A stretch of DNA of 36,624 bases from an uncultured bacterium (GTDB lineage Bacteria; Verrucomicrobiota; Verrucomicrobiia; Verrucomicrobiales; Akkermansiaceae): the NCBI GenBank assembly GCA_945831585.1, contig CAMACY010000012.1, forward strand, positions 1 to 36,624, given 5' to 3'. The notes below the pieces were generated by a model. That model searched no databases. It was not told the origin of the DNA and worked only from the letters and a program-made list of their open reading frames with translations. The position numbers were made by a program, and so were the translations under genes. This document shows positions 29,770 to 33,269 of the stretch, one piece after another (the first letter of the stretch is position 1; each line of letters opens with the position of its first letter).

Positions 29770-30660
29770 ATGAAAGGAATTGTCCTGGCCGGAGGAAGCG
29801 GCACCCGACTCTACCCCATCACCAAGGGGGTCAGCAAGCAATTGTTGCCCATCTTTGATAAACCGATGGTGTATTACCCTATCTCGACGCTGATGCTGGC
29901 GGGCATTCGCGATATCCTCATCATCTCTACGCCCGATGACCTTCCCGGCTTCCGTCGGCTCCTCGGCGACGGATCCGATTTCGGCGTCAACTTCAGCTAT
30001 GCCGAGCAGCCCTCGCCCGACGGACTGGCGCAAGCCTTCATCATCGGGCGCGAGTTCATCGGCACAGACTCCGTCTGCTTGGTTCTGGGCGACAATCTCT
30101 TCTACGGGCACGGGTTTACCAAGATGCTGCACGCAGCGGTCGATACTGCCGACCATGCCGGTAAAGCCACCGTTTTCGGCTACTGGGTTGCCGACCCGGA
30201 GCGCTACGGCGTGGCCGAGTTCGATGCAGCGGGCAACTGCCTCTCCATTGAGGAAAAACCGCAGCAACCCAAATCGCACTACGCCGTCGTCGGGCTCTAC
30301 TTTTACCCCAATCGGGTAGTTGATGTTGCGGCCGCAATCAAACCTTCCGCACGCGGCGAGTTGGAAATCACCACGGTCAACCAATGTTTTCTGCGCTCCG
30401 GCGAGCTGACGGTGCAGCCTCTTTCTCGCGGTTTCGCCTGGCTCGACACGGGGACGCACGACTCCCTCAGCGAGGCTTCCACCTTTGTGGAGGTTATCGA
30501 GAAACGCCAGGGACTCAAGATTGCCTGTCTGGAGGGCATTGCCTACCGCAACGGCTGGATCAGCAGAGAGCGTCTGCTAGAGCTTGCTGCCCCCATGGCT
30601 AAGAACGGCTACGGAAAATACTTGCAACAATTGGCCGCATCGGCTGCATCCCCTCTATGA
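29770..30660 (+). CDS. rmlA: Glucose-1-phosphate thymidylyltransferase
   Basis: This enzyme joins dTTP and glucose-1-phosphate to make dTDP-glucose, the first step of dTDP-L-rhamnose synthesis. The 296-residue protein starts [18 protein letters not shown], the nucleotide-binding loop, followed by [47 protein letters not shown] and [11 protein letters not shown]. Its length is normal for the short RmlA class, which is allosterically inhibited by dTDP-rhamnose. It is first of four rml genes in the order A-C-D-B and overlaps rmlC by ATGA. Rhamnose is presumably used for the surface polysaccharide whose glycosyltransferases follow. Confidence 0.97.
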
Positions 30661-31226
30661 ACTGCCTACCTACCAGTATTCCCGGTGTGTGCATCATCGA
30701 ACCTCGCGTGTTTGCCGATGCTCGCGGCTACTTCTTTGAGTCCTTCTCCGAGGCGTGGTTCCGCCGCCATGTGTGCGACACCCACTTTGTGCAGGACAAC
30801 GAATCGCGCTCCGTGCGCGGCACCGTGCGCGGTCTGCACTACCAGCACGCCCCGCATTGCCAGAGCAAGCTTGTGCGCTGCGTGAAGGGGCGTGTGCTCG
30901 ATGTCGCTGTGGATATCCGCCATGGTTCGCCCACCTTCGGCAAGCATGTGGCCGTGGAGCTCAGTGCCGAGAACCACCGCCAGCTTTTCATTCCCCGCGG
31001 CTTTGCCCATGGCTTTGCCGTGCTGAGCGAGGAGGCTATCTTCCAGTACAAGTGCGACAACTACTATGCCCCCGAGAGCGAGGGCGGTATCGCTTGGGAC
31101 GACCCCGCCCTCGGCATTGATTGGCAGCTGCCGGCAGCAGATGTCATCCTCTCCGCCAAGGACACCGACCGCTGCACTCTGGCAGACGCACCGCACGATT
31201 TCGATATATCCATCCCGCTGTATTGA
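30657..31226 (+). CDS. rmlC: dTDP-4-dehydrorhamnose 3,5-epimerase
   Basis: This cupin enzyme epimerises C3 and C5 of dTDP-4-keto-6-deoxyglucose. The 189-residue protein has the expected motifs: [34 protein letters not shown] (catalytic His in GLHYQ), [36 protein letters not shown] and [10 protein letters not shown]. Length is normal. The start overlaps the rmlA stop. The gene is followed by 85 bp containing a 7-bp tandem repeat before rmlD, the only wide gap in the rml cluster. Confidence 0.97.
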
Positions 31227-31248
31227 TATTTAGCCTCCCGACCTCTTC

Positions 31249-31311
31249 GTAAATCGAAAATCGAAAATCGAAAATCGTAAATCATAAATCGTAAATCGTA
31301 AATCGTAAATC
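31249..31311. repeat. Nine-copy 7-bp tandem repeat abutting the rmlD start
   Basis: Nine consecutive heptamers of the form (G/A)(T/A)AAATC fill 31249-31311 without a gap: one GTAAATC, three GAAAATC, GTAAATC, ATAAATC, then three GTAAATC. The last unit ends directly at the rmlD ATG (31312). The array is AT-rich, without a Shine-Dalgarno sequence, in a GC-rich operon. The recent-looking identical runs (three of each type) suggest slippage expansion. Confidence 0.92.
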
Positions 31312-32175
31312 ATGAATATCCTTGTGACAGGCTCCGCCGGGCAGCTGGGTCTCGAAATGCGCCGCGTGGCTGCCGAGCAGATGCCGCAGCACCACTGGCG
31401 CTTCACCGACGTCGCCGAGCTCGATATCACCGATGCCGCCGCCGTCCGCCGCGCCGCCGACGGGGTGGACGCCATCGTCAACTGTGCCGCCTACACCAAC
31501 GTTGACCAAGCCGAGGTCGACACCGAGCTTGCGCGCCGCATCAACTCCGACGCCGTGCGCAACCTCGCGCTTGCCGCAGCCGAGACCGGTGCGCTGCTCA
31601 TCCACGTCTCCACCGACTATGTATTCGGCGGCACGGCCAACACCCCCTACACCGAGGACAGCCCCACCTGTCCCCTCGGGGTCTACGGAGCCACCAAGCT
31701 GGCAGGTGAACAGGCCATTGCCGCCGCGGGCTGCCGCGCCCTCATCCTGCGCACTGCCTGGCTTTGGTCCGTCCACGGCAACAATTTCGTTAAGACGATG
31801 CAGCGCCTCATGAGCGAGCGCGACAGCCTGCGCGTGGTCATCGACCAGGTGGGTAGCCCCACCTTTGCGGGCGATTTGGCGGATGTCATCGGCCGCGTTC
31901 TCGCCCTCGATCCTGCGGAGCAAGCCCTCGGTATCTACCACTACACCAACGAAGGGGTCTGCTCTTGGTACGACTTTGCCATGGCCATCCGCGAGCTCAT
32001 CGGCGCTACGCGCTGTGACCTGCAACCCTGCCGCAGCTCGGAATACCCCTCGCGCGTGACCCGCCCTGCTTATTCCGTGCTCGACAAGAGCCGAATCCGT
32101 CGTGAGCTCGGCATCCGCATTCCCCACTGGCGCAGCAGCCTGCAGCGCATCCTTACCCAGAACACTCTCCCCTGA
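31312..32175 (+). CDS. rmlD: dTDP-4-dehydrorhamnose reductase
   Basis: This enzyme makes dTDP-L-rhamnose by NAD(P)H reduction. The 287-residue protein begins with the Rossmann motif MNILVTGSAGQLGLEM, then IVNCAAYTNVDQAE, VSTDYVFGG and the catalytic YGATKLAGE (YxxxK). Its length is normal. It follows the heptamer array directly and has no ribosome binding site. Expression may therefore depend on the AT-rich repeat as an unstructured loading region, or on coupling from upstream; that is inference. It is separated from rmlB by 2 bp. Confidence 0.96.
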   Translation: MNILVTGSAGQLGLEMRRVAAEQMPQHHWRFTDVAELDITDAAAVRRAADGVDAIVNCAAYTNVDQAEVDTELARRINSDAVRNLALAAAETGALLIHVSTDYVFGGTANTPYTEDSPTCPLGVYGATKLAGEQAIAAAGCRALILRTAWLWSVHGNNFVKTMQRLMSERDSLRVVIDQVGSPTFAGDLADVIGRVLALDPAEQALGIYHYTNEGVCSWYDFAMAIRELIGATRCDLQPCRSSEYPSRVTRPAYSVLDKSRIRRELGIRIPHWRSSLQRILTQNTLP

Positions 32176-32177
32176 TT

Positions 32178-33269
32178 ATGAGCGACCAACGCCACATCCT
32201 CATCACCGGCGGCGCGGGCTTCATCGGCTCGCATGTTGTGCGACTCTTCGTCAACCGCTACCCGCAGTACCGCATCATCAACCTCGACAAACTCACCTAC
32301 GCAGGCAACCTCGCCAATCTCAAGGACATTGAGGACAAGCCGAACTACACCTTCGTAAAGGCGGACATCTGCGACTTCGACAAGATGTGCGCCCTCATGC
32401 AGGAGTACGATATCGACGGCGTCATCCATCTGGCTGCCGAGAGCCACGTCGACCGCTCCATCAAAGACCCCTTCACCTTTGCGCGCACCAATGTGATGGG
32501 CACGCTGAGCCTCCTGCAGGCCGCCCGCCAGCACTGGAATGGCAACTGGGAAGGCAAGCGCTTCTACCACATCTCCACCGACGAGGTCTACGGCGCGCTC
32601 GAGCTGGACAAACCCGAAGGCTCCGCCCCCTACGGCAGCGAGTTCTTCCTCGAGACCACCAAGTACAATCCGCATAGCCCCTACAGTGCCTCCAAGGCCG
32701 GTAGCGACCACTTTGTGCGCGCCTATCACGATACCTACGGCATGCCTACGCTGGTGACCAACTGCTCCAACAACTACGGCCCCTACCAGTTCCCGGAGAA
32801 GCTTATCCCCCTCTTTATCAACAATATCCGCCATGGTAAGCCGCTGCCTGTTTACGGTAAGGGCGAGAACGTGCGCGACTGGCTCTACGTGGTTGACCAC
32901 GCCCGCGCCATCGATGTTATTTTCCATCAGGGCAAGACCGGCGATACCTACAACATCGGCGGCTTCAATGAGTGGAAGAACATTGATATCGTGAAGGTGG
33001 TGATTAAGACGGTGGACCGTCTCCTCGGCAACCCCGAGGGCACCAGCGAGAAGCTCATCACCTACGTCACAGACCGCGCCGGGCACGACCTGCGCTACGC
33101 TATCGATTCCACCAAGCTCAAGAACGAGCTAGGCTGGGAACCCTCTCTCCAGTTCGAGGAAGGTATCGAGAAGACCGTGCGCTGGTATCTTGATAATCAG
33201 GAGTGGATGGATAACATCACCTCCGGCGAGTACGAGAAATACTACGAGGACATGTACAAGAACCGCTGA
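32178..33269 (+). CDS. rmlB: dTDP-glucose 4,6-dehydratase
   Basis: This enzyme converts dTDP-glucose to the 4-keto-6-deoxy sugar, the second step of the rhamnose pathway. The 363-residue protein has the NAD-binding motif ILITGGAGFIGSHVVRLF, LDKLTYAGNLANL, AAESHVDRSI, STDEVYGAL and the catalytic YSASKAGSDHFVRAY. NCSNNYGPYQFPEKLIPLF and RDWLYVVDHARAID are also diagnostic. It is last of the four rml genes, 2 bp after rmlD. GC content drops sharply after its stop, marking the boundary to the AT-rich glycosyltransferase island. A short hairpin (AGGCTG...CAGCCT, 33273-33291) follows the stop without a U-tract. Confidence 0.97.
   Translation: MSDQRHILITGGAGFIGSHVVRLFVNRYPQYRIINLDKLTYAGNLANLKDIEDKPNYTFVKADICDFDKMCALMQEYDIDGVIHLAAESHVDRSIKDPFTFARTNVMGTLSLLQAARQHWNGNWEGKRFYHISTDEVYGALELDKPEGSAPYGSEFFLETTKYNPHSPYSASKAGSDHFVRAYHDTYGMPTLVTNCSNNYGPYQFPEKLIPLFINNIRHGKPLPVYGKGENVRDWLYVVDHARAIDVIFHQGKTGDTYNIGGFNEWKNIDIVKVVIKTVDRLLGNPEGTSEKLITYVTDRAGHDLRYAIDSTKLKNELGWEPSLQFEEGIEKTVRWYLDNQEWMDNITSGEYEKYYEDMYKNR

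Follow-up and report, generated by a model that had tools for sequence, protein, structure and literature searches.

The STRR heptamers of cyanobacteria are tandem 7-mers that change by 7-bp steps and are distributed patchily among relatives. Heptamer arrays at start codons have also been described, with a role so far untested. The nearest example, TAACTGA in marine Beggiatoaceae, is mostly found in forward orientation right before start codons and has been proposed to act in translation (MacGregor 2015, PMC4679880). For phase-variable repeats of surface genes, the same paper cites Moraxella catarrhalis uspA2, whose 5′ UTR holds an AGAT array. A literature search turned up no description of AAATCGTAAATC as a repeat.

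The array considered here lies in a window of 36,624 nt (the whole stretch analysed) from a genome of 1.92 Mb in 94 contigs, designated G000; other G numbers are comparison genomes. Four genes on the + strand, each exceeding its NCBIfam equivalog cut-off, place it inside a rhamnose operon, as the first-pass annotation had it, with the order rmlA-C-D-B: rmlA, glucose-1-phosphate thymidylyltransferase (29770..30660, TIGR01207); rmlC, dTDP-4-dehydrorhamnose 3,5-epimerase (30657..31226, TIGR01221); rmlD, dTDP-4-dehydrorhamnose reductase (31312..32175, TIGR01214); and rmlB, dTDP-glucose 4,6-dehydratase (32178..33269, TIGR01181). The A-C junction is an overlap of 4 nt and the D-B gap is 2 nt; rmlC and rmlD are separated by 85 nt, of which 63 are filled by nine units of (G/A)(T/A)AAATC (31249..31311, + strand), the last base directly preceding the rmlD ATG. 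The array had been taken for the whole sequence before rmlD, which is not so: a spacer of 22 nt (31227..31248, + strand), recognisably common to G005 and G187, separates the end of rmlC at 31226 from the first unit.

The units run GTAAATC, three GAAAATC, GTAAATC, ATAAATC, three GTAAATC (five, three and one of the respective kinds), and nine of nine fit the consensus. The runs are interrupted, the longest perfect one being three units. Tandem Repeats Finder places the array at 31247-31311 with period 7, 9.3 copies, 93% matches and a score of 102, the highest in the window; the best period-7 self-match covers 52 of 56 positions, whereas 200 windows simulated with a first-order Markov model never exceeded 35. 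The array is far beyond chance, and is a long simple sequence repeat (unit of 5-11 nt) longer than chance allows in its own genome; both the reading of the units and the period-7 test bear out the nine-unit description given at first pass. Since a period of 7 is not divisible by 3, a stop falls in each frame over three adjacent units: the last three units carry TAA at 31292, 31299 and 31306 (31292..31308, + strand), just 5′ of the rmlD start, the last of these in frame with RmlD. Read in reverse, the array holds one stop only; a gene called on the minus strand (31282-32127) was put down to the reversed unit, which is nearly stop-free.

The same junction was compared among congeners, one genome per species, with the rmlC stop as left edge and the rmlD ATG as right edge. 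Unit counts are about 0, 1, 4 or 9. G005 has one unit (...CTCTTCGTAAATC, then ATG) and G187 has four (...TTTCTTCGTAAATCGTAAATCCAAAATCGTAAATC, then ATG); four units are present in G011:C78 and G024 too, in diverged form; G018 has one or a few that are degenerate, and no unit is seen in G010, G011:C44 or G180. The arrays of G005, G187 and G000 all terminate in AAATC directly before the ATG. The left spacers of G000, G005 and G187 being recognisably alike, the junction is orthologous, and its copy number therefore differs from species to species. The expectation that the array changes in length thus holds in 7-bp steps between congeneric species, the level at which the data were gathered. A single junction that can be followed through such states is a natural series for the effects of arrays on translation. 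Related arrays also abut the rmlC and rmlB starts in congeners. In G010 (L009), the rmlA stop is followed by reversed heptamers and the rmlC start is preceded by forward ones, and the two sets at this rmlA-rmlC junction could pair with each other.

A search of the 1.92-Mb genome found no second array with at least three units of the (G/A)(T/A)AAATC type. The only other array of G000, at G000:C7:26800 (L197), is short and degenerate (ATTCGTAAATCGTAAATCGCAA); it contains the stop codon of the preceding gene and lies directly against the ATG of an open frame that has at least 692 codons and no Pfam match. Across the genus, the GTAAATCNNAAATC pair is present in 45 of 76 genomes, at counts from 1 to 290, and its reversed control gave almost none in the same 76. 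Three perfect AAATCGT units occur in only 6 of 388 genomes of a phylum-wide sample, and a check of IMG/VR for viral carriage yielded only seven stretches with four perfect units.

Three congeners (G026, G025 and G211; L067-L085) carry well over 100 matches per genome, in intergenic elements that often have a GC hairpin upstream or downstream of the array, with stems that vary among copies. Just one of 52 arrays in these genomes is at a start codon and most lie away from starts, so start-abutting placement is not a universal property of the repeat. A dispersed intergenic repeat of the form GGCGTAAGCCGC...TTCGTAAATCGTAAATCCAAAATCGTAAATC...GTGTCCCA(A/T)ATCTTTGGGACACGTATG is found in G018 and G024 (L270, L271, L276, L281-L285); several G018 contigs finish near it, which suggests assembly breaks. 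Within the window itself, adjoining and similar minus-strand genes of the sodium:neurotransmitter symporter family (PF00209; 18768-20486 and 20610-22352) are apparently a tandem duplication.

Bias towards start codons was counted in the fetched loci of low-array genomes, rml loci excluded, with mechanical ORF calls. Eleven of 58 arrays have a co-oriented ATG at most 20 nt beyond their end, and in the reversed orientation there is no such array; among random positions in the same loci, 66 of 9400 satisfy the same 20-nt rule. Three of the eleven are orthologous xseA copies and two have doubtful frames, which leaves seven clear independent loci, so that few independent loci and mechanical ORF calls underlie the orientation bias; the single stop of the reversed array may explain part of it. 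The genes 3′ of these start-abutting arrays are groES, purQ, xerC, gmk, xseA, a beta-N-acetylhexosaminidase gene and an LpxI-like gene (purQ, xerC and LpxI are named by best hit, with scores under the strict equivalog cut-offs). At xseA, the leader arrays of G235, G035 and G012 differ in length too. At groES, the array is present in G018 and G035 and absent from G000, G010, G011, G242 and G226, the genomes covered by this comparison, with GroES 95-99% identical; arrays can evidently be gained or lost ahead of a gene whose expression has to be maintained.

The explanation that best accommodates these observations, and in which our confidence is about even, is that the rmlD-leader array is an elastic 5′ spacer, grown by slippage and compatible with the start codon it abuts. 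It would belong to a family of AAATCGT-type heptamer repeats spread across the genus, whose members come and go and vary in length, probably through slippage, and would be tolerated or mildly favoured directly before start codons in one orientation, that in which the A-rich unit contains TAA. The rmlD array probably expanded from a short state comparable with the single unit of G005. The result would be a spacer, free of a Shine-Dalgarno site, by which rmlC and rmlD are kept apart in translation; it may keep the rmlD start weakly structured, and its length may slightly tune the level of RmlD, switching being unlikely.

The properties predicted for the leader are compatible with a small effect of this kind. 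No Shine-Dalgarno-like motif was found at the window genes checked, some of whose start positions were guessed. Predicted folding energy from -35 to +35 goes from -14.4 kcal/mol with 0 units to -9.6 with 4 and then stays level up to 12, so a change of copy number around nine is predicted to have little effect; mean unpaired probability at the start ranges from 0.32 to 0.58, with no simple trend with unit number. The natural leader folds as its shuffles do (z 0.09), so any ‘low structure’ is modest: a modest opening of the start site by the array is possible in these models, as is some leader-level effect of a change in units. A structured RNA leader was considered and set aside, as folding equals that of shuffles and there is no Rfam family. 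A promoter within the array was likewise rejected, the sole match being weak and on the minus strand.

A second perspective locates the role of the arrays in recombination: at gene boundaries they would offer short shared homology for the exchange or insertion of polysaccharide genes and of small cassettes, notably the four-helix-bundle IVP genes. We consider this improbable, and keep it as the second hypothesis because of an identity break at the array and an IVP gene lodged between arrays in G024. The array position does coincide with the identity break of a mosaic rml operon. Between G000 and its closest congeners, RmlB identity is mostly 94-97%, but that of RmlD only 63-68%. Compared with G187, the 3′ half of rmlC is 89-94% identical, identity stays high through spacer and array, and rmlD goes down to 55-65%. 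Over 240 nt on each side, the end of rmlC is 92% and the beginning of rmlD 59% identical, the largest drop among 55 pairs (the next is 19 points); at four-fold sites the figures are 29/36 for rmlC versus 7/31 for rmlD (P 2e-6, before correction for the 55 pairs). However, the recombinant may be G187 and not G000, since the G187 rmlD resembles that of G024 (91% at the amino acid level, GC 50%), and breaks between genes have many causes. Import of the array together with the operon from Bacteroidales was also entertained and rejected: RmlD has relatives there, without heptamers at the rmlC-rmlD junction.

The IVP genes tell in both directions. G024 has one (TIGR02436) between rmlD and rmlB, flanked by an array on each side, and eight fetched sites (G001, G012, G020, G024, G035, G187, G235 and G241) show an array and an IVP gene no more than about 150 nt apart. 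Against this, the best-scoring IVP genes of 30 genomes are mostly without an adjoining array, so that the array does not serve as a general marker of these genes, and G242 carries an inserted gene between rmlC and rmlD that lacks arrays. G000 has no PF05635 match, and thus no IVP gene for arrays to flank. IVP genes (PF05635/TIGR02436) adjoin arrays at L293, L296, L302, L303, L279, L290, L203 and L221; several array-adjoining IVP genes have a reversed array before and a forward array after.

No more and no less improbable is the neutral account, in which slippage has left its product at a site that tolerates it, with zero translational effect. Presence and absence before near-identical GroES genes speak for it, as do the degenerate array versions seen in G024 and G018. 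The orientation bias near starts, 11 to 0, speaks against it, though selection against harmful orientations alone could yield that figure.

The first-pass annotation proposed a contingency locus: slippage would alter the rmlC-rmlD spacing and ribosome loading, so that the supply of rhamnose, and with it surface polysaccharide, would vary between cells or strains. The array does abut the start of a surface-sugar gene and its length differs between species; moreover, heptamer arrays of two very similar Cyanothece strains differ in 7-nt steps (PMC4679880). As a switch, though, the proposal is weak, and we regard it as quite improbable. The runs are interrupted, with no perfect stretch beyond three units. 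The array lies neither in frame nor between promoter elements, where phase-variable simple sequence repeats act: it does not belong to the coding frame, an in-frame TAA standing at 31306, and therefore cannot shift the RmlD frame (frame-switching of RmlD was rejected on this ground), and a search of the array for + strand promoters and terminators gave none. Modelled folding energy is insensitive to unit number between 4 and 12. Finally, oriented, start-abutting arrays of the same type in relatives precede groES, gmk, purQ, xseA and other housekeeping genes, where on/off switching would be harmful; a rhamnose switch is thus not supported. The elastic spacer is the likelier reading of the two, and the case cautions that a leader repeat in a surface-sugar operon is not automatically a phase switch.

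A post-transcriptional regulon, with S1, a cold-shock protein or a CsrA-like protein binding the repeated leaders and controlling the array-bearing genes jointly, is very improbable: the orientation and start-codon bias do match the pattern behind MacGregor's proposal for TAACTGA (PMC4679880), but only two G000 genes carry an array, and its presence before one and the same gene changes between close species.

Returning to the elastic spacer, the system it most resembles is the TAACTGA repeat. Both are heptamer arrays, mostly intergenic and forward, placed a few nt from starts that mostly lack a Shine-Dalgarno site; both precede genes of mixed function, essential ones included; and both units bear stops when forward. 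There are also differences. The unit here is of the AAATCGT type (GTAAATC, GAAAATC, ATAAATC) and not TAACTGA; G000 has only two arrays, against about 170 sets in the TAACTGA case; length differences are seen here at orthologous junctions of several congeners; and some congeners keep the repeat mainly away from starts. It is possible, if doubtful, that the two represent a convergent device, in which stop-bearing units with a period that is not a multiple of three, AAATCGT here and TAACTGA there, would provide Shine-Dalgarno-less starts with a three-frame stop barrier and an open landing site, their length evolving by slippage.

The cyanobacterial STRR, to which the locus was likened at first pass, make a reasonable comparison, as do the long simple sequence repeats (LSSR) of other bacteria, with tandem 7-mers, 7-bp length steps and patchy occurrence among relatives; unit and lineage differ, the start-codon bias is marked here, and the TAACTGA start-codon heptamers (PMC4679880) are closer. 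With the AGAT array of uspA2, the rmlD array has in common its position in the leader of a surface-related gene; it differs in being interrupted and in having relatives before housekeeping genes. As its unit, its low copy number and its spread in some congeners are unlike those of TAACTGA, the array is best filed within the broad class of long heptamer repeats.
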